This document shows, in pieces, positions 8,896 through 35,071 of a stretch of 47,648 nt of DNA. Under the pieces are notes generated by a model. It had not been told where the DNA came from. It searched no databases and saw nothing but the letters and a program-made list of their open reading frames with translations. Where the stretch lies: assembly GCA_017512805.1 (NCBI GenBank), contig JAFWES010000001.1, forward strand, positions 1-47,648, given 5' to 3'. This DNA comes from Clostridia bacterium. GTDB taxonomy: Bacteria; Bacillota; Clostridia; Christensenellales; Aristaeellaceae. Positions within the stretch are counted from its first letter, which is position 1. Each line of letters begins with the position of its first letter. Both the position numbers and the translations under genes were made by a program.

Positions 8896-9990
8896 TTACT
8901 CGGTCTTGAAGCGGTCGTCGGCAGCATCGCCCAGGGCGTTGATGACGTCTTCCACGTTCTGCGTGGTTTCTTTCACGGCCTTGGCAAAGTCATACCCGTC
9001 CCATACCGCGTCGAGGCTCAGGCCGAACTGGGCCGCCGCTTCGGGCTGCTGGGCGTTGTCAATGACCAGGAACTGATAGGAACCGGTATCATCCGCCAGT
9101 TCCATGCACGCGGGGCTCAGGGCGAATTCCATGAACAGCTTCGCGGCGTTGGGATGCTTGGCGCCCTTGAAGATGGCCACCGGCCCGATTTCGCAGGCGG
9201 TGCCGTCAGAGGGAACCACCAGGCCGACGTTTTCGTATCCGTTGTCCAGAATCTGGGTGATGCCGTCATGCAGAAAGCCGATGCCGATGACGCACTGGCC
9301 GGTGCCCACGTTCTTGGAGGGGCCGGAGCCGGACTTGGTGTACTGCTGAATGTTCTTGTCCAGGGCCACCAGGTAGGCGATGCCTTCGTCATGACCCTTC
9401 ATCTGGAGCATCAGGTTGCAGGCCAGCTTGGGCGTGCCGGCGGTATTGTAGTTGGAGAACCAGATCAGGCCCTTGTATTCTTCCTTCAGCAGGTCATCCC
9501 AGCTCTGGGGCGCTTCCAGACCCAGGCGGGCCAGCTCGTCGGTGTTGACCATGAAGCCCAGGATGCCGGTGTAAATGCCGTACCAGTAGCCGTTGGGATC
9601 CTTGTACAGATCGCTCAACAGGTGGGACGCATTGGCGGGGACATAGCTGTTATCCAGGAAGCCCTTGGCGGCCAGCGCGTCGTAGGGATTGTTGGTGCCG
9701 CCGAACCAGACGTCAGCGGAGGGGTTGCCGTTTTCTTCCTCGATCTTGGTGGGCACTTCACCGGTGCTCAGCCGCTGGAAAGAGGTTTTGATACCGTAGA
9801 GCTTTTCGAACGCCTGGCAGGCGGCGGCCAGGTAGGGCTCCTCGCAGGAACCGTAGACCACCAGTTCGCCCTCGGCCTTGGCGGCTTCCACCAGCGCGGC
9901 GTCAGCGCCGACCGGATCTTCCGCTCCCGCGAAGGACGCGCAGGACAGCAGCATCACTGCACAGAGCAACAGAGCCAGAAACTTCTTCAT
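8896..9990 (-). CDS. ABC substrate-binding protein, FbpA/AfuA superfamily, 364 aa
   Basis: A signal peptide precedes a mature type 2 periplasmic-binding fold. LLSC (14-17) could be a lipobox but is not canonical. The family motifs WFGGTNNPY, GIYTGILGFMVNT and QYTKSGSGPSKN are present. His241 and Asp242 (GFLHDGITQ) and Glu267 (ACEIG) sit where, from memory, hexose-phosphate-binding AfuA has sugar-contacting His, Asp and Glu. I do not see the adjacent Tyr-Tyr iron site of FbpA. Substrate is therefore more likely an organic phosphate or sugar phosphate than iron, but this is inference. The start at 9990 has AGGAGGT 7 nt upstream; the frame stays open further upstream but without signal-peptide character. 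Confidence 0.9.
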   Translation of the reverse strand: MKKFLALLLCAVMLLSCASFAGAEDPVGADAALVEAAKAEGELVVYGSCEEPYLAAACQAFEKLYGIKTSFQRLSTGEVPTKIEEENGNPSADVWFGGTNNPYDALAAKGFLDNSYVPANASHLLSDLYKDPNGYWYGIYTGILGFMVNTDELARLGLEAPQSWDDLLKEEYKGLIWFSNYNTAGTPKLACNLMLQMKGHDEGIAYLVALDKNIQQYTKSGSGPSKNVGTGQCVIGIGFLHDGITQILDNGYENVGLVVPSDGTACEIGPVAIFKGAKHPNAAKLFMEFALSPACMELADDTGSYQFLVIDNAQQPEAAAQFGLSLDAVWDGYDFAKAVKETTQNVEDVINALGDAADDRFKTE

Positions 9991-10068
9991 AAGAATACCT
10001 CCTTGCATATGGTCATATTTTTCAGGACGATGCTTCGTCCGGAAAGACACCTTTTCGTTCCGGAAAGC

Positions 10069-10097
10069 ACTATACCACATTTTCCATCTTTTGTCTA
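10069..10097 (-). promoter_or_regulatory. Promoter of the AfuABC-like operon
   Basis: On the minus strand, TAGACA (10092-10097) and TATAGT (10069-10074) are 17 bp apart. Transcription would begin near 10062, giving a leader of about 70 nt. That leader holds a GGACGA/TCGTCC hairpin (10024-10040) and an overlapping CCGGAA/TTCCGG pair (10039-10063), which could be an operator or an alternative structure. Confidence 0.75.
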
Positions 10098-10156
10098 TGT
10101 TTTTTTTTTCCCCTGCGGCTCGGCAAATAAGCGAAGCAATCATAAAGAAGAAAGGA

Positions 10157-12778
10157 TTACAGCAGCCCCTCCAGGGTTTCATACAGCAAATCAGGCTGAA
10201 CGGGTTTGGACAGATGGGCATTGAGCCCGGCCTGCAGGCTCCGCTGAACATCCTCGTTGAAGGCGTTGGCCGTGAGGGCGATGATGGGGATGGACCGGGC
10301 GTCCGGGCGGTCCAGGGCGCGGATGCGGCGGGTGGCCTCCAGACCGTCCATTTCCGGCATGCGCATATCCATGAGAATGGCGTCGTAATAGCCGGGTTCA
10401 TGTCGTTCAAAGGCTTCCAGAGCTTCCTTTCCGTTGACGGCCAGATCCGCTTCCATGCCCCGGGCGGCCAGAACCATCGTCATGATCTCCGCGTTGATGG
10501 GCACATCCTCCGCCAACAGGATCCGCCGGCCCTGCAGCTCCGCTTTGGGTTTGGAGGTTTCCTGGGCAAGGGTCTTACGGGCGGAGCGGAACTCCTCCAG
10601 AACGGATTGAGCAAAGAGTGGCTTGGGCAGGAACCGGTCCACGCCGGCGTCGGTAGCTTCCTCCAGAATATCGTCCCAGTTATAGGCCGTCAGGATGATG
10701 ATGGCGGACTCCCGGCCGACAATGGCGCGGATCTGCCGGGCCGTTTCCACGCCATCCATCTCCGGCATCTGCCAGTCCAGAAGGATCAGGTTGTAGCTTT
10801 CCCGGCGCATATGCCGCAGGCGCACCATTTCCACGGCTTCCGAGCCGGAGAGGGCAATCTCGGAGGCAATGCCTGCCTTTTCCAGCACCAGCCTGGCGTG
10901 CTCCGCCGCGATGGGATCGTCATCCACCACCAGAACGGTCATGTCTGCCGTCTCAATCTCCGCGTCCGGTTCTCCGCCCTCCGTGTCGGCGTCGGAAAGG
11001 GTGACGGTGACCGTGAAGGTGGAGCCTTTGCCCTTCTCGCTTTCCACTTCGATGGTCCCGTTCATCATCTCTACGATCCGTTTTGTGATGGCCAGGCCCA
11101 GGCCGGAGCTGCCGTAGCGGGTGGTAGTGGTTGCGTCCTCCTGGGCAAAGGGATCGAACAGGCGGGGAAGGAAGTCGGGGCTCATGCCGATGCCGGTATC
11201 GGAGATGATAAAGCGCAGGGTGGACTTGCCTGCGTACTGGGCGACCCGTTCCAGGGAAAAGGTCACTGCCCCGCCCGGAGGGGTGAACTTAACGGCGTTT
11301 CCGAGGATGTTGATCAAAACCTGCCTGAGCTTCTTGCTGTCGCCGATGTAGCATTCATCCAGATGCCCGACGACCCGGCAATCGTACCTCAGCCCTTTTT
11401 CGGCGCACTGACCGGAGATCACGTTATTGACCATCTCCAACATCTTCGGAAAGGAGAATTCCTCGTTCTGAAGGCTCATGCGGCCGGATTCGATCCGGGA
11501 CATATCCAGAATGTCGTTGATGAGATCCAGCAGGTGATCCGCGGAGGTTCCGATCTTGGAAAGGTATTCCCTGGCCTTGTCGGAAACCTCCGGATCGTTC
11601 ATGGCGATATTGTTCAGGCCGATGATGGCGTTCATGGGGGTTCGGATCTCGTGGGACATATTCGAAAGGAAGGCGGATTTGGCCCGGCTGGCGTCCTCTG
11701 CGGCGGCCAGCGCCTCAGCCAGGTTTTCCTGAAGGGAGAGCCGGCGCTCCAGCTCCGCCTGGCGGACCCGGCTTTCGGCGTCGGCGGTCTCCTTTTCCAG
11801 CTGCAGCTGAGCGGTGCGTCGGGTCTGAAGCATAATGAAGGCAAACATGGCCATCATCACCAGGACGGTCAGGCTGAACTGGAGGATACTTTTTTGGACG
11901 ATATCCTGGGATATGGATGAAATCCGCTCGCCGATGACGGATTCCCGGATCAGGTAGGTCAGCTGCCAGTCGGTTCCGGAGACCGGGATATAGGCCAGGG
12001 TTTCGCGGATGTCATGATAGGTAAAGGAAACCACGCCGCGGCGGCCGCCGGTAAAATCCTCGGCAAACCGGTCGTAGGAATAGCCGCTTTCGTAGGCGAC
12101 GGTCCGCATGGTCTCCAGCAGATTCCCCGAATCGGACAGGGTTCCCAGAACTGAATTGGTCAGGGCAATGCCCCCCGAGGTATACAGGTTTGCAAAGGTG
12201 GTGTTGCCCGTATTGGTATTCATGGATGCGCCGGAGAGCATCACCTCCATATCGATCTGCATAAAGCAGGCGGAAAACCGCCTGTCCAGGAAGGCGATAT
12301 CCACAGGCACGGCGACGATCACCTTTTTTTCCGGCATGTCCAGATTCAGGATGGTAATCACCGGTTCGGACAGATGAAGGTAATCAAAATGGTAGTCGGC
12401 GATGTTATCCTGCGTGCCGGTGGAAGTGTAGATCAGACCGTCGGTATCCACGAAGGCGAAGCGCTCCAGGTTGTACAGGGACTTGATCCGGAACTGGTAC
12501 TGCTCCAGAGGAGCTTTGCCGGAAAGATCCTCGGGCTCCATGAGCTCCAGCGCGACCTGAGTATCCCGGATCAGCTGGCGCAGGTTGCTTTCCAGCACCT
12601 GCTCCCGGCGGCCGGCCAGCTCGTCCAGGTACAGCAGGCTGACGCTTCGGACGGCCGCTTCCGTATCCTGACTGGCGCTGCGGCCCATCCACAGGGTGCC
12701 CAGCACGAGAATCGCCGCCAGTATGAGCCCTCCGATGATCGCCGCCAAAGTGACGCCGCTGGTTTTCCGTTTCTTCAT
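10157..12778 (-). CDS. Hybrid sensor histidine kinase with two receiver domains, 873 aa
   Basis: Membrane segments at about 8-31 and 298-320 enclose an extracytoplasmic sensor region of about 265 residues (Cache-like by layout). A coiled linker, HisKA with phospho-acceptor His in FLSNMSHEIRTPMN (about 375), HATPase with DTGIGM and GSSGLGLAI, and two receivers follow. Receiver 1 has VVDDDP and ILLDWQMP; receiver 2 has LAEDVP and ILMDMRMP. No phosphotransfer domain or DNA-binding output is seen in it or beside it, so the phosphate must go to an unlinked regulator. It sits upstream of the AfuABC-like operon, which has its own promoter, and may sense the same nutrient. The leader carries a dispersed repeat element. 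Confidence 0.93.
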   Translation of the reverse strand: MKKRKTSGVTLAAIIGGLILAAILVLGTLWMGRSASQDTEAAVRSVSLLYLDELAGRREQVLESNLRQLIRDTQVALELMEPEDLSGKAPLEQYQFRIKSLYNLERFAFVDTDGLIYTSTGTQDNIADYHFDYLHLSEPVITILNLDMPEKKVIVAVPVDIAFLDRRFSACFMQIDMEVMLSGASMNTNTGNTTFANLYTSGGIALTNSVLGTLSDSGNLLETMRTVAYESGYSYDRFAEDFTGGRRGVVSFTYHDIRETLAYIPVSGTDWQLTYLIRESVIGERISSISQDIVQKSILQFSLTVLVMMAMFAFIMLQTRRTAQLQLEKETADAESRVRQAELERRLSLQENLAEALAAAEDASRAKSAFLSNMSHEIRTPMNAIIGLNNIAMNDPEVSDKAREYLSKIGTSADHLLDLINDILDMSRIESGRMSLQNEEFSFPKMLEMVNNVISGQCAEKGLRYDCRVVGHLDECYIGDSKKLRQVLINILGNAVKFTPPGGAVTFSLERVAQYAGKSTLRFIISDTGIGMSPDFLPRLFDPFAQEDATTTTRYGSSGLGLAITKRIVEMMNGTIEVESEKGKGSTFTVTVTLSDADTEGGEPDAEIETADMTVLVVDDDPIAAEHARLVLEKAGIASEIALSGSEAVEMVRLRHMRRESYNLILLDWQMPEMDGVETARQIRAIVGRESAIIILTAYNWDDILEEATDAGVDRFLPKPLFAQSVLEEFRSARKTLAQETSKPKAELQGRRILLAEDVPINAEIMTMVLAARGMEADLAVNGKEALEAFERHEPGYYDAILMDMRMPEMDGLEATRRIRALDRPDARSIPIIALTANAFNEDVQRSLQAGLNAHLSKPVQPDLLYETLEGLL

Positions 12779-13199: not shown

Positions 13200-13664
13200 T
13201 TATCCTTCGATCAGGATCGTCTTCTTTTCTTCGGCCTTCTTTGCTTCCTTCTTGGGGACGCTGAGCTTCAGCACCCCATCCTCAAAGTGGGCCTTCACAT
13301 CCTCTTCGGTCACATGGCTGCCGACGTAGAAGCTGCGGCTCATGCTGCCGGAATAGCGCTCCCGGCGCAGGACGCGGCCTTTCTCGTCCGTATCCTTCTT
13401 TTCCTCCGCCTTGTTGGCGGAGACGGTCAGGTTTCCGTTCTGCAGCTCCAGGTTGATGTCCTCCTTGCGGAAGCCGGGGAGATCCATCTCCATCTCATAG
13501 CCGGTTTCGGTTTCCCGGACATCCGTTTTCATCATATGGGGCGCGGGTTTGCCGCCGAACATCTGGTCGGCCCACCGCATTCCGCGGCCGAAGTCCCGGT
13601 CAAAGCCGTCGAACATGTCCATCAGGTTTTCGGTAAACAGGGTAGGAAGATATGTACTCATCAT
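13200..13664 (-). CDS. Small heat-shock protein, Hsp20/alpha-crystallin family, 154 aa
   Basis: An ATP-independent holdase that binds unfolding proteins in the cytoplasm. A short variable N-terminus precedes the alpha-crystallin domain (about 43-145), with YEMEMDLPGFRKEDINLEL, ERYSGSMSRSFYV and FEDGVLKLSVPKKE, followed by a Lys/Glu-rich tail. Length is typical. Two ATGs in tandem (13664 and 13661) follow GGAGG; the first is used here. Two perfect CtsR boxes overlap its promoter, so the gene should be repressed until heat or protein stress. Confidence 0.96.
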   Translation of the reverse strand: MMSTYLPTLFTENLMDMFDGFDRDFGRGMRWADQMFGGKPAPHMMKTDVRETETGYEMEMDLPGFRKEDINLELQNGNLTVSANKAEEKKDTDEKGRVLRRERYSGSMSRSFYVGSHVTEEDVKAHFEDGVLKLSVPKKEAKKAEEKKTILIEG

Positions 13665-13766: not shown

Positions 13767-13794
13767 ATTATACTCAAAAGTCAAAGATAGTCAA
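13767..13794 (-). promoter_or_regulatory. hsp20 promoter
   Basis: Minus-strand TTGACT (13789-13794) and TATAAT (13767-13772) are 16 bp apart. The -35 box lies inside the first CtsR box, so a bound repressor would block polymerase. The leader is about 95-100 nt. Confidence 0.75.
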
Positions 13795-13795
13795 A
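13779..13795. promoter_or_regulatory. CtsR operator 1
   Basis: AGTCAAAGATAGTCAAA fits the CtsR heptad direct-repeat consensus (RGTCAAA-nAn-RGTCAAA) at every defined position. CtsR represses class III heat-shock genes in Firmicutes. The box overlaps the hsp20 -35 region. Confidence 0.92.
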
Positions 13796-13804
13796 TTTCT
13801 CAAA

Positions 13805-13821
13805 GGTCAAAGAAAGTCAAA
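13805..13821. promoter_or_regulatory. CtsR operator 2
   Basis: GGTCAAAGAAAGTCAAA is a second perfect CtsR box, 26 bp from the first (start to start), upstream of the hsp20 promoter. Tandem boxes suggest cooperative, tight repression. Confidence 0.92.
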
Positions 13822-13921
13822 AACCATTAGAATCGGGGTCATTCTGGGCTTTTTCTTCAAAAATCGAAAGAATTCTCATTATTTCTTTCTATTTCTGTAA
13901 ATTTCATAAACCGGAGGTTCA

Positions 13922-14080
13922 CTGTTAGGGAACAAGAAACGAGCTGTCAGGAAACTGAAAAGGACCGGTCAGGAAATAGGGAATGACCTGTCAGAAAAAC
14001 CGGAACGGTCTGCCGGGAATCCCGGGAGAGTTCTGCCGGAACGGGGAAACCCCTGCCCTGGAAACGGGAAAACCCCTGTA
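13922..14080. repeat. Phased array of about eight degenerate direct repeats, 22-bp period
   Basis: Units with consensus CTGTCAGGAAA start at 13922, 13944, 13966, 13988, 14010, 14033, 14053 and 14076. The first four steps are exactly 22 bp, the last three 23, 20 and 23. The first four units are the best conserved; later units drift to CTGCCGGGAA. The array ends at the -35 box of the plus-strand promoter at 14081. Two helical turns per step would place a bound protein on one face of DNA. It fills most of the space between hsp20 and the next gene. Confidence 0.75.
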
Positions 14081-14109
14081 TTGACAAACCGTACGCGGAA
14101 TGTTAGAAT
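14081..14109 (+). promoter_or_regulatory. Strong promoter of the 5'-nucleotidase C-domain gene
   Basis: TTGACA (14081-14086) and TAGAAT (14104-14109) are exactly 17 bp apart, directly after the 22-bp repeat array. The leader of about 170 nt to the start at 14285 shows nothing I can name. Confidence 0.85.
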
Positions 14110-14284
14110 ACGCCCCGTCAGCACAAGCTGATAACGGTTCGCATAAGCGGGCTCTCCGGCTTTCAGATGGAAACAGATTTCATGCCCGGTATCATGAAGG
14201 TGCCGATGATCCTCCCAAGAGGGTTATCGCGCCTTTTATTGTATCCGGCGCCGCGCGAAACGGATCGAAGAGGAGAGAATAAGA

Positions 14285-15157
14285 ATGAATAAGATGAAGA
14301 AAATGCTGAGCCTGGCTGTGGCCCTGTGCATGTTTTGCGGCATCGCGGCGAGCGCGTCCGCTTCCACCTTTACCGACGCTCACGGCAATGTGATCGAACT
14401 GGACGAAGCCCTGGAAGCGTATACGAATGTGACGCTGGCCGGCGCGGATGATGCCGCCCGCAAGGGGGAAACCAACCTGGGGGATCTGTGGACGGATGCC
14501 CTGCGCTGGTTTGCCGTCTCCGGCGCCATCAACGAGTATTGGGAAGAAGACGATGTAACCGCCGGCAATACCGCGATTGCGGTGGACGCGGACCGGGTTG
14601 TGGCCCTGTGGAACGGCGGCAACCTGCGGGCTGACGTGGCGGAAGGAAAGTTCGGCGCGGAGCAGCTGGCGGAAGTGCTGCCCTATCCGAACAAAGTGGC
14701 TGTGGTTTACATGACCGGCGCGCAGCTGGCGGAGGCCCTTGAAGCGGCCTCTCAGGGACTGCCCTACAGCGAAGAGAGCGCCGACGCCTGCGCTTCCTTC
14801 ATGCAGGTATCCGGCCTGAAGTACACCGTGGATACGAAGGTTGCCTACGACCGGGGCGAAGCCTACGGCGACAAGGGAATCTGGTTCAAGGCCGCTTCCC
14901 TGGGCCGGGTCCATGTGGAAGAGGTGAACGGGCAGCCCTTTGATTCCGAAGCTGTCTATGCGGTGATCACCAGCAACGCCAACTTCAACGGAATGGATTC
15001 TTCCTATATTTTCCCTGCCGCCGCCGAAGCGAACGAGAAGAGCACCATCACCACCGCGGTGGTTCGCGACGTCATCTGGCTGTATATCGCCGCCGAGCTG
15101 AACAACATCATCGGCGACAGCTATGCCCAGGCCCAGGGCCGCGTGACCGTCCAATAA
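14285..15157 (+). CDS. Secreted stand-alone 5'-nucleotidase C-terminal domain protein, 290 aa
   Basis: A signal peptide (about 1-27, ending ASASAS) is followed by one domain resembling the C-terminal, substrate-binding half of UshA/CD73-type 5'-nucleotidases. Visible landmarks are ETNLGDLWTDALRW, LWNGGNLRADV, LPYPNKVAVVYMTGAQLAEA and FMQVSGLKYTVD. The N-terminal metallophosphoesterase domain with its metal ligands is absent, so hydrolysis is not expected from this chain alone. It may bind nucleotides or ligands at the cell surface, or pair with a separately encoded phosphatase. It has its own strong promoter, an upstream repeat array and an intrinsic terminator, so it is monocistronic. Confidence 0.82.
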   Translation: MNKMKKMLSLAVALCMFCGIAASASASTFTDAHGNVIELDEALEAYTNVTLAGADDAARKGETNLGDLWTDALRWFAVSGAINEYWEEDDVTAGNTAIAVDADRVVALWNGGNLRADVAEGKFGAEQLAEVLPYPNKVAVVYMTGAQLAEALEAASQGLPYSEESADACASFMQVSGLKYTVDTKVAYDRGEAYGDKGIWFKAASLGRVHVEEVNGQPFDSEAVYAVITSNANFNGMDSSYIFPAAAEANEKSTITTAVVRDVIWLYIAAELNNIIGDSYAQAQGRVTVQ

Positions 15158-15327: not shown

Positions 15328-15406
15328 CAGGATATGCTTTGATGATTGGAGAGGAACCTGATCCGCACAGGATGCGCTTTTTTGATGATTGGAGAGGAAC
15401 CTGATC
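15328..15406 (+). repeat. Tandem duplication of the moxR ribosome-binding region
   Basis: Two copies (15328-15363 and 15368-15406) share an almost identical block running from CAGGAT through TTTGATGATTGGAGAGGAAC to CTGATC. Each contains GGAGAGG. Only the second copy is positioned to serve the moxR start, so the first may be a decoy or standby ribosome site. Confidence 0.9.
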
Positions 15407-15408
15407 AG

Positions 15409-16365
15409 ATGCAAACTCAGCTGGAATCCGTATTGCGGGAAGTGGAAAAGGTCATCGTCGGCAAGCGGGCCGTGATTGAGAAAATCCTGATGGCCCTGCT
15501 GGCGGAAGGCCATGTGCTGCTGGAGGATGTGCCGGGAGTGGGCAAGACGACCCTGGCCGTGGCGCTGAGCCGGGCGATGGATCTTCGGTTTCAGCGCGTG
15601 CAGTTTACGCCGGATGTGCTGCCCTCCGACCTGACGGGGTTTTCCATGTACGACAAACGCAGCGGGGATTTTCTGTACCGTTCCGGGGCGCTGATCCGTG
15701 CCAATCTCCTGCTGGGGGATGAAATCAACCGGGCGCCGAGCAAAACCCAGTCCGCCCTTCTGGAGGCCATGGAGGAGCGGCAGGTGACGGTGGACGGGGA
15801 AACCCATCCGCTGGAAAATCCCTTCATGGTGATTGCCACCGAAAACAACGTGGGCACGGCCGGGACGCAGTCCCTGCCCTTCGCGGAGCTGGACCGGTTT
15901 CTGGTGCGGCTGTCGCTGGGCTATCCGGATTACGAGGCGCAGATGACCATGCTGCGGGACCGCCGGACAGAGAACCCGCTGGACAGCGTGGCCTGTGTCA
16001 TGGCCAGGGACGAGCTCATTGCCATGCAGCGGGAGACGAGAAACGTCACCGTCCGGGATGCGATCCTGGACTACATTACCCGGCTGAGCATGGCCTCCCG
16101 GGAGCATAAGGCGGTTCAGGTGGGGATCAGCCCCCGGGGCGCCCTGTTTCTCAGCAGGATGTCCGCGGCCAGAGCCTGTCTGGAGGGGCGGGACTACGTG
16201 ACGGGCGGGGACGTACAGGCGGTGCTGAAGGATGTATGCGCGCACCGAGTCCTGCTGAAGGAAAACGTACGGGAAGCCGGCGTGGAACAGGTGCTGGACG
16301 AGCTGGTCAAGACAACGGACAACCCGGACCGGCGCCACCTCTTTCAAGGGATGAAAAACGCATGA
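15409..16365 (+). CDS. MoxR-family AAA+ ATPase, 318 aa
   Basis: MoxR ATPases act as chaperones in maturing metal-site or von Willebrand-type protein complexes. Walker A is EDVPGVGKTT (39-48) and Walker B LLLGDEINR (100-108); then come sensor FMVIATENN and the family phrase SLPFAELDRF. Length is normal. I chose ATG 15409 (MQTQLESVLREVEKV) because the preceding GGAGAGG is 11 nt away; ATGs at 15385 and further upstream lie on or before that site. It heads a five-gene operon in which every junction is an ATGA overlap. The next gene is DUF58-like, the usual partner of MoxR. Confidence 0.93.
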   Translation: MQTQLESVLREVEKVIVGKRAVIEKILMALLAEGHVLLEDVPGVGKTTLAVALSRAMDLRFQRVQFTPDVLPSDLTGFSMYDKRSGDFLYRSGALIRANLLLGDEINRAPSKTQSALLEAMEERQVTVDGETHPLENPFMVIATENNVGTAGTQSLPFAELDRFLVRLSLGYPDYEAQMTMLRDRRTENPLDSVACVMARDELIAMQRETRNVTVRDAILDYITRLSMASREHKAVQVGISPRGALFLSRMSAARACLEGRDYVTGGDVQAVLKDVCAHRVLLKENVREAGVEQVLDELVKTTDNPDRRHLFQGMKNA

Positions 16366-17867
16366 GGAAGCGATGGATCGGCTACGCGGTCTGGCTGCTG
16401 CTGACCGCCTGCCTGTATTTTTTTGAGAATAACACGGGGACAAGGGCCATTCTCCTGTGCGCCCTGCTGTTTCCGCTGGTTCCTTCTCTGAGAATGGCCC
16501 TCTTTACGGCCGACGAACCGCCCCGGGAAGAGAAACGGACACCGCGGACGGCACGGCGCTTCCGCCTTCTGGAAGAGGAAGAGCCGGGAGACGTGCGGCC
16601 GTATCAGCCGGGGGATCCTGTCCGCCGGATTCACTGGAAGCTTTCCGCCCGGAGGGATGAGCTGCTGGTCAGGGGGACGGAAAGGGAACAGAACCCCTTC
16701 GAGGCGGAACAGACGGTGACGGCGGAGGCATCCGGGAGGCGAAAGACCCCGCGGAGCCTGCCGGTCCGCCTCTGCGCCGGAATCCTGGCCTGCAGCGTCG
16801 GGTCGCTGATCCTGATTCCGGAGGCGCGAAACAGCGCCATGGCCCTGTGCAACGGGATTTTCCGCGCCAGCGAGGCCGTAAACGCGTATGCCTACGATCC
16901 TTTTCCGGTTCCGGAAGGGCAAAGCGTCCTGTTGGCCGCGGCGCTGCTTGCCGCCGCGCTGACGGCGCTGATCGCCCTGATGATTCTGCTCCGCAGCAAA
17001 AAGATGGCGATGGGCCTGACGGGGGCCTTAACCCTGTTTCAGGTTTACTTCGGGCTGCCCTTTCCGGCCTGGGCCAATCTTTCCGTTTACGGTCTGCTGG
17101 CGCTTTGGATGATCCGGGGGCCCGGGGGGGAAAAAAGCCTGCGGCGCTTTATCGCCGCGATCCTCCTGGTGACCTTGTTTACGGCGCTGCTGGCTCCCGG
17201 CACGGACGCGGGCACGGAAGCGGCCTCCGAGACGGTGCGGGACCGGTTGAACCGCTTGGCGCAGCGGATCGCGGGGGAGGTTTCGGAGCAGCCGGAGGGC
17301 GAAACGGAAACCCGGCACGTGCACACGCGGTCGCTTCAGACGGGGAACGGGGAAGCCCGGACGGACCGGGAGTACCGCCTGGTCATGCTGGAGGAGGAGC
17401 AGATCTCCATACCCCGCTTCGTCAACTGGCTGAGGACGGCCTTCCTCTTTCTGCTGATGGTGGCCGTGACGGTTCTTCCCTTTGCCCCGTTCCTGCTCCT
17501 GAACGCGCGGAAAAGGAAAGCAAGGGAAGCAAGAAGGGCTTTTGCGTCGGAACAGGTCAATGAAGCCGTGTGCGCCATTTTCCGGCAGATACTCACCTGG
17601 CTGAGGGAAACCGGCGTCGACGGGGGAAACCTGCTGTATCGGGAGTGGGCGGATACCCTTCCGGAGGACATGCCGGAGGGGTATGCAGCCCGTTTCGGCG
17701 AGTGCGCAATGGATTTTGAGGAAGCGGTCTACAGTGATCATGACCTGCCGGAGGAAAAGCGCCAGCTGGCGCTGGCTTTACTGAAGGAAACGGAAACCGC
17801 CCGTTTCCGGACCGCGGACTGGAGGCAGCGCCTCCGCATCAGATATTGGGTGTGTTTATGCGAATGA
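16362..17867 (+). CDS. Membrane protein with DUF58 motif and DUF4129-like C-terminus, 501 aa
   Basis: Two membrane segments (about 5-45) lead to a cytoplasmic loop with the DUF58 signature VRPYQPGDPVRRIHWKLSAR (77-96). The von Willebrand-like part that normally follows is absent. Instead there are about five more membrane segments (about 128-282 and 355-382) and a C-terminal region (about 390-495) resembling DUF4129, including FEEAVYSDHDL. In many genomes the order is moxR, DUF58 protein, then a transglutaminase-like membrane protein ending in DUF4129. This gene looks like a fusion of the two that lacks the transglutaminase core. The start overlaps the moxR stop (ATGA). Confidence 0.75.
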   Translation: MRKRWIGYAVWLLLTACLYFFENNTGTRAILLCALLFPLVPSLRMALFTADEPPREEKRTPRTARRFRLLEEEEPGDVRPYQPGDPVRRIHWKLSARRDELLVRGTEREQNPFEAEQTVTAEASGRRKTPRSLPVRLCAGILACSVGSLILIPEARNSAMALCNGIFRASEAVNAYAYDPFPVPEGQSVLLAAALLAAALTALIALMILLRSKKMAMGLTGALTLFQVYFGLPFPAWANLSVYGLLALWMIRGPGGEKSLRRFIAAILLVTLFTALLAPGTDAGTEAASETVRDRLNRLAQRIAGEVSEQPEGETETRHVHTRSLQTGNGEARTDREYRLVMLEEEQISIPRFVNWLRTAFLFLLMVAVTVLPFAPFLLLNARKRKAREARRAFASEQVNEAVCAIFRQILTWLRETGVDGGNLLYREWADTLPEDMPEGYAARFGECAMDFEEAVYSDHDLPEEKRQLALALLKETETARFRTADWRQRLRIRYWVCLCE

Positions 17868-18898
17868 GATTCAGAAAAACAGGACGGGTTCCGCTTCTTT
17901 TCCTTCTGCTGGCTTTTTGCCTGCTGCTGACAGGCTGCCGGACCAGGACGACGGGAAGCGGTTCCGTCCCGCGAACCGCGGAGACCGAAAACGGGGACGC
18001 CGCCCGGCAGGCGGCTTCGGATTCCGTCCCGGAGGAGCCGACGGACGATCCGGAAACGGAGATCCCTCCGGAAAAGATGGAAGCGGCGGGGGAGCGGACA
18101 AAGGAAAATCCGGACGCGTATCGAAAAGAATACGATGAGAACGCGCCGGCGGAAATCGTCGCCGGAACGGACCGGGCCGTCCACGCGGAAGGGGAGGGCA
18201 GGGGATTCTCCGCTCCGGGAGAGGAAGCGGCGGAAAAAGTGTCCAGGCTGAACGACGCCGCCGAGGAAGCGGCCACCCAGAAGGTGGCGGCGGAGGAGGC
18301 GGATCGGATGGGCGTTTCCGAAGACGCGGAGGAAGCCGATTCCGCCATGACCTATTTTACGGTCCTGCTGGCGGAGCGGACGGGAAGCCTCTTTGAGTGT
18401 CAGCGCCTGAACGCGTATTGGGAAACCGCCGGGGATTACGTGACGGTCTACAAAACATCCCCGGAGCACAGCCTCCTTCTCGACGCCGGCGTGTATGACG
18501 TTTCCGCCCGGCTGCTGGAAGAAAACCTGCGCGTGGACGACGGCTGGATCAGCCGCAAAAACCCCGGCGTGATTGTGAAGACGGTGGACGGCGGCGTCCT
18601 GGGCGCCGGCATTTCCTCCGCGGAGGAAGCGCGGCGGGTCCATTCGGGACTGATCAGCCGGGAGGGCTGGGCGGCGATGGACGCGGTACGGAACGGACGG
18701 ATCCTCCTCCTGTCGGAGGAGCTGCTGGAGGCGCCGCATCTGCGGGTGTTCGTTTTGCTGGCCATCGCGAAGACCGCTTATCCCGAGCTGATGAAAGAGG
18801 CGGAGCTGGGAAAGGCGCTGGAGATGCTGACGGAGGAAGCGACCGGGAGCATTCCCGCGGGGATCTATTTTTACAATGGGCAGGGGGAGACACGATGA
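17864..18898 (+). CDS. Lipoprotein with partial BtuF-like binding fold, 344 aa
   Basis: The lipobox LLLTGC ends the signal peptide near residue 25. A low-complexity Glu/Ala-rich linker covers about 26-160. From about 163 the chain resembles the second lobe of siderophore/cobalamin-type binding proteins: ISRKNPGVIVKTV, EGWAAMDAVRNGRILLLSEE and AIAKTAYPELMKEAE. The first lobe seems degenerate or missing, so ligand binding is uncertain. ATG 17864 gives an ATGA overlap with the upstream stop, as at every other junction of this operon; ATG 17858 is an alternative. The downstream ECF S component raises the idea of a cofactor-uptake role. Confidence 0.65.
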   Translation: MRFRKTGRVPLLFLLLAFCLLLTGCRTRTTGSGSVPRTAETENGDAARQAASDSVPEEPTDDPETEIPPEKMEAAGERTKENPDAYRKEYDENAPAEIVAGTDRAVHAEGEGRGFSAPGEEAAEKVSRLNDAAEEAATQKVAAEEADRMGVSEDAEEADSAMTYFTVLLAERTGSLFECQRLNAYWETAGDYVTVYKTSPEHSLLLDAGVYDVSARLLEENLRVDDGWISRKNPGVIVKTVDGGVLGAGISSAEEARRVHSGLISREGWAAMDAVRNGRILLLSEELLEAPHLRVFVLLAIAKTAYPELMKEAELGKALEMLTEEATGSIPAGIYFYNGQGETR

Positions 18899-19317
18899 AC
18901 ATACTTGTCATTGACGGCCAGGGCGGCAGGCTGGGGCGCAAGCTGGTGGAAAATATCCGGAAAAACTGCCCCGAGGCGGACATCACCGCCATCGGGACGA
19001 ACAGCATGGCGACGGAAAACATGATGAATTCAGGCTGCGCCAATCATCTGGCCACCGGGGAAAACGCGGTGATCGTGGCCTGCAGAACGGCGCGGATCAT
19101 CGTGGGGCCCTTCGGTATTGCCACGGCGGACGCCATGCTGGGGGAAATCTCCCCGGCCATGGCCAATGCCGTCGCGTCCAGCCCGGCCTATCGGGTGCTG
19201 GTGCCGATGAATCTGTGCAATACGTATATCGCGGGGGTTGCGTCGGGCTCCGGGGCCATCCTGGAGGATGCGGTGAACCACATCCGGCAGTACATGGAAA
19301 AGGAGCGCGGCAAATGA
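18895..19317 (+). CDS. DUF3842 family protein, 140 aa
   Basis: MNILVIDGQGGRLGRKLVE at the N-terminus, a Gly-rich turn of nucleotide-binding style, matches my memory of DUF3842, as do TNSMATENMMNSGC, VACRTARIIVGPFGI and LCNTYIAGV. It is small, soluble and cytoplasmic, with no established biochemical role that I know of. The start overlaps the lipoprotein stop (ATGA) and a G-rich ribosome site precedes it. In this operon it directly precedes an ECF transporter S component, also with an ATGA overlap, so a role linked to that substrate is possible. Confidence 0.85.
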   Translation: MNILVIDGQGGRLGRKLVENIRKNCPEADITAIGTNSMATENMMNSGCANHLATGENAVIVACRTARIIVGPFGIATADAMLGEISPAMANAVASSPAYRVLVPMNLCNTYIAGVASGSGAILEDAVNHIRQYMEKERGK

Positions 19318-19850
19318 CATCCCTTCAGATCCGAAAACTGACGTACGCGGCGCTCTACCTGGCCATTGCCATGGTGCTCCCCTTTATCACGGGGCAGATT
19401 CCGGAGATCGGGTCCATGCTGAGCCCCATGCATATTCCCGTGCTGCTTTGCGGTTTTATGTGCGGATGGCCCTGGGGCATGACGGTCGGGCTGATCGCGC
19501 CGCTGCTCCGCTCGGTCACCTTCGGGATGCCCGCGATGTTCCCGTCGGCGGTGGCGATGGCCTTCGAGCTGGCTGCCTACGGCTGCGTGTCCGGGCTCAT
19601 GTACCGGCTGCTGCCGAAAAAGAAGGGGACCGTCTATGCCGCTTTGATCATCGCCATGATCGCCGGGCGCATTGTCTGGGGCATCGCGCGGTTGATTCTC
19701 GCGGGGCTGTCCGGCAGCAGCTTTACCTGGGCTCTCTTCCTGGCCGGGGCTATTACAAACGCGATCCCGGGGATTATTCTGCATCTTGCGCTGATTCCTC
19801 TTCTGGTCATCGCTATGGAGCGGGCGGGGCTGTCCCTGAACAGAAGGTAG
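19314..19850 (+). CDS. ECF transporter S component, 178 aa
   Basis: Five to six hydrophobic segments with the ECF S-component pattern: an N-terminal IRKLTYAALYLAIAMVLPF helix carrying small residues, then MLSPMHIPVLLCGFMCGWPW and AVAMAFELAAYG. S components bind a vitamin or similar ligand in the membrane and use a shared EcfAA'T energising module, which is not in the window. Substrate cannot be read from sequence. The start is set by AAGGAG 9 nt upstream and by the ATGA overlap with the DUF3842 gene. It ends the moxR operon. Confidence 0.88.
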   Translation: MTSLQIRKLTYAALYLAIAMVLPFITGQIPEIGSMLSPMHIPVLLCGFMCGWPWGMTVGLIAPLLRSVTFGMPAMFPSAVAMAFELAAYGCVSGLMYRLLPKKKGTVYAALIIAMIAGRIVWGIARLILAGLSGSSFTWALFLAGAITNAIPGIILHLALIPLLVIAMERAGLSLNRR

Positions 19851-34930: not shown

Positions 34931-35071
34931 TCGGAAAAGCATACCGGCGAAAAAGCATACCGGCGGAAAAGCAATTTTTGAGGTCGGAAAAGCATACCGG
35001 CGAAAAAGCATTTCAGCGTTCTGAAAAGCATACCGGCTAAAACGCATTTTTGCGGTCGGAAAAACATACCG
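34931..35071. repeat. Degenerate tandem array after rpoD, about 36-bp superunit
   Basis: The core GAAAAGCATACCGGC and variants recur with GCAT-type centres at 34939, 34955, 34971, 34992, 35008, 35028, 35044 and 35064. Steps alternate 16 and about 20 bp, making a 36-37 bp superunit that starts GGTCGGAAAAGCATACCGG. The array fills most of the rpoD-rhomboid gap. There is no unique spacer pattern, so it is not CRISPR. Confidence 0.85.

Follow-up and report, generated by a model that had tools for sequence, protein, structure and literature searches.

A structured leader RNA behind an apparently species-private 22-bp repeat array is a candidate attenuator of an orphan ECF transporter operon in Clostridia

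In the 47,648-nucleotide stretch of a Clostridia draft genome analysed here (the window), a stand-alone 5'-nucleotidase C-terminal-domain gene is preceded by an array of direct repeats, a promoter and a structured leader RNA (Table 1); the leader RNA, unlike the array, is the conserved control element. The leader apparently belongs to an uncatalogued RNA family of Clostridia that lies mostly before one orphan transporter gene, encoding the S component of an ECF transporter. We consider it rather probable that this RNA is an attenuator or riboswitch candidate of a nickel-pincer nucleotide (NPN) regulon, whose ligand we infer. The original prediction, made from the letters of the DNA, had singled out the repeat array as phased sites feeding into a strong promoter between two genes: the phasing, the promoter and the flanking genes stood, whereas the phasing is not kept in relatives and the leader RNA had been missed.

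Table 1. Positions, in the window, of the repeat array, the promoter, the leader RNA with its hairpins and the genes that follow
Feature	Coordinates	Strand	Basis
Repeat array, eight direct repeats, 22-bp-stepped	13922..14080	+	periodicity, seen in source genome only
Promoter TTGACA-17-TAGAAT, TG before second hexamer	14081..14109	+	sequence
Structured leader RNA (attenuator, riboswitch candidate)	14114..14243	+	matched over its full length by models R1 and R2
Hairpin P1, GUCAGC-ACAA-GCUGAU	14117..14132	+	covariation, fold
Hairpin P2, GGUUCGC-AUAA-GCGGGCU	14136..14153	+	covariation, fold
Hairpin P3, CGGUAUC-AUGAA-GGUGCCG, antiterminator-like, nearly invariant	14187..14205	+	alignment, covariation
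Intrinsic terminator, stem 14199-14214 / 14219-14233, CCAA loop, then TTTTATTGT	14199..14242	+	fold
Stand-alone 5'-nucleotidase C-terminal-domain protein, 290 aa	14285..15157	+	PF02872, E 7e-26
MoxR-type AAA ATPase, DUF58 protein, third ORF	15346..18898	+	ORF list, domain matches
DUF3842 protein	18895..19317	+	PF12953, E 8e-44
ECF-transporter S component	19317..19850	+	PF12822, E 3.5e-18

The strong promoter announced directly after the array is indeed there (TTGACA at 14081-14086, a 17-bp spacer, TAGAAT at 14104-14109), and a promoter of the form TTGA[C/T], 17-19 nt and TAnnnT closely precedes 61 of 68 orthologous leaders. The ~130 nt directly after the -10 box are common to eleven orthologues of the genus. 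Four hairpins emerge from an alignment of 39 leaders: P1 and P2, both with C-NNAA-G loops, P3 and an apical P4. This alignment was drawn from 46 leaders that a text pattern had picked out, without L052, L061, L081, L083, L088, L099 and L121 for their length, odd ends or near identity to other copies. In it, 19 of the 27 pairs change on both sides and yet still pair, a number reached by none of 500 shuffles; 94% of the cells pair, which no shuffle equals, while the slid controls collapse. In the 73 sequences fitted to the model, one of them probably a false match, the pairs with changes on both sides rise to 24 of 27. These 73 matches come from 73 sources, L101 contributing two (the probable false match, on the minus strand, is one of them) and L161 none; a further alignment holds 66 matches from 67 sources, L044, L078, L101, L133, L135 and L140 having been removed beforehand. 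Two models serve below: R1, the covariance model of the leader, and R2, a broader one built on 66 sequences. The leader of the window scores 104.7 bits with R1 and E 1.8e-14 with R2, its own sequence being in the training of both, and the fold of 14114-14255 has a z of -4.34.

The base of the terminator, in the window, uses the 3' arm of P3 (GGUGCC...GCGCC-UUUUAUUGU). In 64 of 66 leaders one arm of P3 is taken up, in the free fold, by pairing with downstream sequence; P3 itself forms in the other 2. Imposing P3 on the fold carries a mean cost of 6.6 kcal/mol. With shuffled downstream sequence a P3 arm is recruited in 295 of 1320 folds (22%). Besides, all 66 leaders carry at least five U in eight nucleotides near their end. 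Judged from these computed folds, the layout of P3 and terminator is that of usual transcription attenuation with the terminator as the default. The transcript started at the promoter would begin with the structured RNA, and the leader would control, by transcription attenuation, an operon formed of the nucleotidase-domain, MoxR, DUF58, ORF, DUF3842 and ECF S genes. As P3 and the terminator share an arm, anything stabilising P3 would let the polymerase read through; and, the terminator being the default fold, a ligand stabilising P3 would switch the genes on. A leader peptide was also considered, the sequence AUGAAGG resembling a start, but was rejected: the AUG is not kept and, by inspection, the length differences between leaders are not divisible by three.

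The putative operon follows the leader on the same strand, in the order nucleotidase-domain protein, MoxR, DUF58, a further ORF, DUF3842 and ECF S. The stand-alone 5'-nucleotidase C-domain gene of the original prediction is confirmed by its Pfam match (E 7e-26); its product has a signal-like N-terminus, by eye, and is probably secreted, and its 10 orthologues in the genus are 70-85% identical. The MoxR, DUF58 and third reading frames probably belong to the same operon, as judged from the sequence. PDB sequence searches turned up nothing stronger than RibU (E 0.002) for the ECF S component and ytfG (E 0.11) for DUF3842, both of them weak. Farther upstream in the window, on the minus strand, 10157-12778 encodes a hybrid histidine kinase with receiver domain matches, which adjoins a solute-binding protein gene (8896-10410).

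The relatives examined were the best 80 of 93 found in a public collection, mostly metagenome-assembled Clostridia of rumen and gut and partly the same genomes. R1 (E <= 6e-4) recognises the leader in 68 of these 80 named loci, 38 of which had supplied training sequences. Within the genus it finds the RNA in 27 of 45 genomes, where the sites precede the nucleotidase-domain gene, DUF3842 genes or the ECF S gene. Two weaker matches of the genus, near E 1e-4, lie before other reading frames (L150 and L152), and that of L152 looks like chance. In L150 a TTGACA promoter is followed by a 358-aa protein without Pfam family, and a protein similar by eye comes after ECF S in L153. Across the order R1 detects 9 of 396 genomes: four are in the genus (G000, G018, G019 and G064), and among the five outside it only G165 is convincing.

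The ECF S family itself is found Clostridia-wide, in 207 of 391 genomes of the class at E <= 1e-3, a count that includes distant S components. A lax R1 search of 57 further ECF S loci found the RNA in 30 (E < 0.07), nearly always directly before the ECF S gene, and before DUF3842 in L160; the core shared by these RNAs reads nAUACC-AUGAA-GGUnUn. DUF3842 lies within the fetched stretch of 25 of these 57 loci, and directly upstream of ECF S on the same strand in 19. The nucleotidase-domain protein, on the other hand, has no match in the 57 ECF S loci or in the R2 loci, the window's own excepted, and thus appears as an addition made at the level of the genus.

The R2 scan, blind to genes, gave 44 sites in 42 of 391 Clostridia genomes, against 207 genomes with some ECF S match, the R2 filters being stricter. 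By their coordinates, 33 of the 44 sites lie within ~200 nt upstream of an ECF S gene, 12 of them being training sequences and 21 not; one more is the window, and the last 10, none of which was in the training, lie elsewhere. Five of these 10 head operons with larE, larB or larC, genes of the NPN pathway, in as many genomes: the order is E-B-C in G484 and G567, larC follows in G782, larE and farther down the same strand larC in G499, and in G586 one strand carries the RNA, a solute-binding protein, two ATPases, two permeases, LarE, LarB and LarC. All the scanned LarE, LarB and LarC pass the curated cut-offs, except one LarB clipped by the end of its stretch. The ABC transporter proteins behind R2 sites are all below cut-off, with peptide (Opp) and nickel families about equal; the G586 binding protein scores best with the oligopeptide model, followed by NikA, and the permeases and ATPases of G586 give a mixed picture.

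Of the other sites, one precedes a NikA-like gene (G461), another a FecCD/BtuC-type permease (G708). G780 has two: the first is followed by a gene that, by eye, probably encodes a methyltransferase and by a NikB-like gene, the second by a pair of small membrane proteins (by eye), a pair which precedes larE or larC in G499 and G782. In G477 (L255:1469-1592, E 8e-5) the site has no recognisable protein target; two tRNA genes lie ~0.2 kb downstream on the same strand. With 33 of the 44 sites before the ECF S gene and 5 of the 10 others heading lar operons, the target-gene set is coherent across distant lineages. The two small membrane proteins (MACF... and MTLLTTVFAAIICT...) come after the RNA in L236, L241 and L253, before larE in L236 and before larC in L241; neither has a Pfam match, and the first (MACF...) has no NCBIfam match.

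According to two reports (PMC7583248, PMC11770544), nicotinic acid adenine dinucleotide is the compound from which LarB, LarE and LarC build the nickel-pincer nucleotide. Import of the cofactor or of a precursor by the ECF S component would be expected to stand in for synthesis. We compared both genes in 172 genomes (G433-G604, which we took as the class part of 181), counting LarC as present at ~1e-79 or better and ECF S at E <= 1e-25: 12 genomes have both, 59 ECF S only, 57 LarC only and 44 neither, so that ECF S and LarC tend to exclude one another (Fisher p 1.3e-7, odds ratio 0.16, kinship ignored). Moreover, ECF S is found in 18 of the 23 genomes with a strong LarA and no LarC, compared with 6 of the 28 that have both LarA and LarC. 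Six genomes with weak LarC matches, G482 and G602 among them, had first been counted as lacking it; counted as present, they shift the four classes to 15, 56, 60 and 41 (odds ratio 0.18, p 5e-7, kinship again ignored), and the proportions with ECF S to 16 of 21 for LarA only and 8 of 30 for LarA and LarC. A shuffle within families agrees (12 genomes with both for 17.7 expected), a test which omits most double-negative genomes and is biased toward avoidance. The ECF S gene of G483 and of G602 stands directly before larA, whose product is over the cut-off; R2 finds no RNA at these two loci, and G602 is also one of the weak LarC genomes.

These data could be assembled into a scheme in which the RNA is a riboswitch for the NPN cofactor, or its nucleoside or a precursor, and controls synthesis through larEBC, accompanied in one genome by an Opp/Nik-type transporter, as well as salvage by ECF S. 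The ECF S component would import an NPN-related compound, with DUF3842 as its intracellular handler and, in this genus, the secreted nucleotidase-domain protein as a further helper; LarA-positive, LarC-negative bacteria would then live on imported cofactor. Taken as a whole this scheme is rather unlikely, and we hold the salvage idea only tentatively for three reasons. First, a LarA match at E <= 1e-8 is missing from 34 of the 71 genomes with ECF S, and one at 1e-30 from 47 of them, so that supplying LarA with imported NPN can explain only part of the picture. Second, larC, a LarA-like protein and ECF S are all present in the source species. Third, the tests of avoidance are not corrected for kinship. 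Against the regulon itself, a ligand that stabilises P3 would turn the genes on, whereas a product usually switches its supply genes off.

The same leaders can be read without a small ligand. An RNA-binding antiterminator protein might recognise the repeated C-NNAA-G hairpins, i.e. P1, P2 and the terminator, in which case the leader would not be a direct riboswitch. The recurrence of one loop in three hairpins of a single leader fits such a protein, as does the weakening or loss of P2 in some leaders, expected for modular protein sites; the almost invariant sequence of P3, however, fits better with the core of an aptamer, and no gene for such a protein was identified beside the leader. We regard it as possible but somewhat doubtful. 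ANTAR-type antitermination sites are tandem hexaloops with A1 and G4; judged by eye, the C-NNAA-G loops of the leaders do not seem to agree with this consensus.

Plain Ni2+ or Co2+ as the ligand, which would make the leader a nickel-supply switch, seems unlikely to us. Genes for Nik/Opp-type solute-binding proteins or permeases do follow the RNA in G461, G780 and G586, and the nickel model is the best match in G461 and G780, the oligopeptide one being preferred for the binding protein of G586; but most sites stand before a vitamin-type ECF S gene (PF12822) or lar genes, and similarity to the NiCo riboswitch is absent at E <= 1. This riboswitch (Rfam RF02683) occurs in Clostridia with nickel-related genes and has an architecture different from that of the leader. 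The leader resembles it in host class and in nickel-related genes, but not in model match: its model gave nothing at E <= 1 in 17 loci, nor at E <= 5 in 13900-14300.

The leader as a candidate riboswitch of the NPN regulon shares with transcription-attenuating riboswitches its 5' position, a conserved structure, mutually exclusive antiterminator and terminator, and a narrow set of related targets. It differs from them in being built of small hairpins with alike C-NNAA-G loops, in having a candidate ligand only, and in the absence of an Rfam match: no family of Rfam 15 (4227 families) matches it at gathering or relaxed thresholds, and a scan of 20 of the 57 ECF S loci at curated thresholds found nothing either. 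The guanidine-II riboswitch consists of two small tandem hairpins with like tetraloops, ACGR. The tandem arrangement and the likeness of the tetraloops recall the leader, whose loops are however of NNAA type, whose genes are others and which has no Rfam match.

In lactobacilli the lar operon has a protein regulator and a nickel transporter. No literature tying lar genes to a leader RNA was found, and no paper on DUF3842, in searches where subscription journals were mostly not covered, so that absence from the literature is weak evidence of novelty. No link between a riboswitch and lactate racemase was found in PMC5640608. A large list of candidate RNAs from human microbiomes has been published (PMC8040213), and the leader may be one of the unnamed candidates in it. 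If the NPN regulon is true, the leader would represent an RNA class missing from Rfam 15 and give access to the NPN cofactor at the RNA level; it would also predict what a widespread orphan ECF S component transports and what DUF3842 does. It would finally raise a testable question, whether gut and rumen bacteria with LarA and without LarC obtain their NPN cofactor from others.

The 22-bp repeats that had first drawn attention to this region are a real, diverged tandem array. The units start where they had been placed (13922, 13944, 13966, 13988, 14010, 14033, 14053 and 14076), with the same steps of 22, 22, 22, 22, 23, 20 and 23 bp. At lag 22 the identity amounts to 0.59 for 13922-14080 and to 0.67 for its first 110 bp; none of 2000 dinucleotide shuffles is as periodic, whichever lag between 10 and 59 is taken (between 10 and 49 in the case of the 110 bp), and the array is therefore not due to chance. 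Among 9508 overlapping 110-bp windows of the 47.6 kb, at lags 10-44, higher periodicity is found only in a 36-bp array near 34951. The copies are however diverged, with 61-74% identity to the first one, and weaken toward the promoter, where the last three hardly keep more than CTG and a purine-rich tail; Tandem Repeats Finder, at score 30, does not report the array. The mean pairwise identity of the first five units is 0.75 in the first 11 bp and 0.43 in the last 11 bp, with a permutation p of 0.056 for the better-kept first half.

The motif search proposed with the original prediction did not reveal a second array in the 3.07-Mb draft of the source genome, which is 88% complete. A degenerate two-unit pattern, allowing up to two mismatches, matched 19 times: 4 of the matches chain into the array and 15 are scattered single pairs with two mismatches each, the reversed pattern giving 4. 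At the DNA level, a search of the 45 genomes of the genus found the full array in the source genome and no long match in the other 44, the matches outside the array being short, from E 0.0014 upward. The 10 other orthologues of the genus have, by reading, different DNA upstream, without the array. Out of the 68 leader-bearing loci 67 had enough upstream DNA for a test of periodicity, and none of them shows an array of 21-23 bp: the best reaches 0.42, to be compared with 0.66 in the window. The conservation of phasing in relatives, whose absence the prediction had named as part of its refutation, is thus found neither in the 10 orthologues of the genus nor before the 67 leaders, and the array appears species-private.

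What this array does is another matter; a local operator and a minisatellite in decay are both conceivable. The second possibility, a functionless tandem duplication in decay, one of several having arisen independently upstream of this promoter, comes close to an even chance in our opinion, while staying below it. Indeed, L078 carries a perfect 24-bp tandem repeat (2610-2686, 3.2 copies) directly before the orthologous promoter and L058 has GGATTC-type repeats farther upstream of it, both unrelated to the window array, so that 2 of 67 orthologous loci show clear repeats of their own; a third, L103, known by its score only, is just over 0.5 (0.51 at lag 27). This suggests that repeats may arise independently at this place, and the window has other tandem arrays. 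On the other side, purely neutral decay would be expected to affect the whole unit alike, whereas the first half seems the better preserved, without reaching significance.

That same half-unit bias (0.75 versus 0.43) is expected if the array forms cooperative sites for a species-specific DNA-binding regulator of the operon, acting on top of the RNA control. Steps of 22 bp hold the same helical face and the array abuts the -35 box, which also speaks for such sites; but the permutation p of the half-unit is only 0.056, the spacing slips to 23, 20 and 23 precisely where the promoter is closest, the genome offers the 15 scattered two-unit matches in place of a second array, the relatives lack the array and no candidate regulator was found. 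This regulator is quite plausible, even if we lean against it.

That a PhoB/PhoP response regulator binds the array as PHO boxes is very improbable, and this reading was set aside: PHO boxes are CTGTCA-type repeats with an 11-bp unit, and CTGTCA does recur in the array before a gene with a 5'-nucleotidase domain, but at 22-bp steps (lag 11 is outside the top 12 lags), none of the 11 PstC matches of this 88%-complete genome is over the cut-off, the PhoU matches lie in open frames of ~600 aa, as we would expect of Na/phosphate cotransporters, and the conserved operon points elsewhere. As to iterons, the scanned neighbours (the Hsp20 and 5'-nucleotidase C-domain genes) include no replication-initiator gene.

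Other tandem arrays seen in the window include one of 36 bp at 34951-35071 (3.3 copies), its most periodic stretch, and one of 87 bp at 1803-2017 (2.5 copies, 92% match), which overlaps a long minus-strand ORF. The gene on the other side of the 22-bp array is, in agreement with the original prediction, the Hsp20 gene (13200-13664, minus strand). Upstream of it, two CTCAAAGGTCAAAGAAAGTCAAA-type repeats, 91% alike and 26 bp apart, occupy 13773-13821; they resemble CtsR sites, as had been assumed before.
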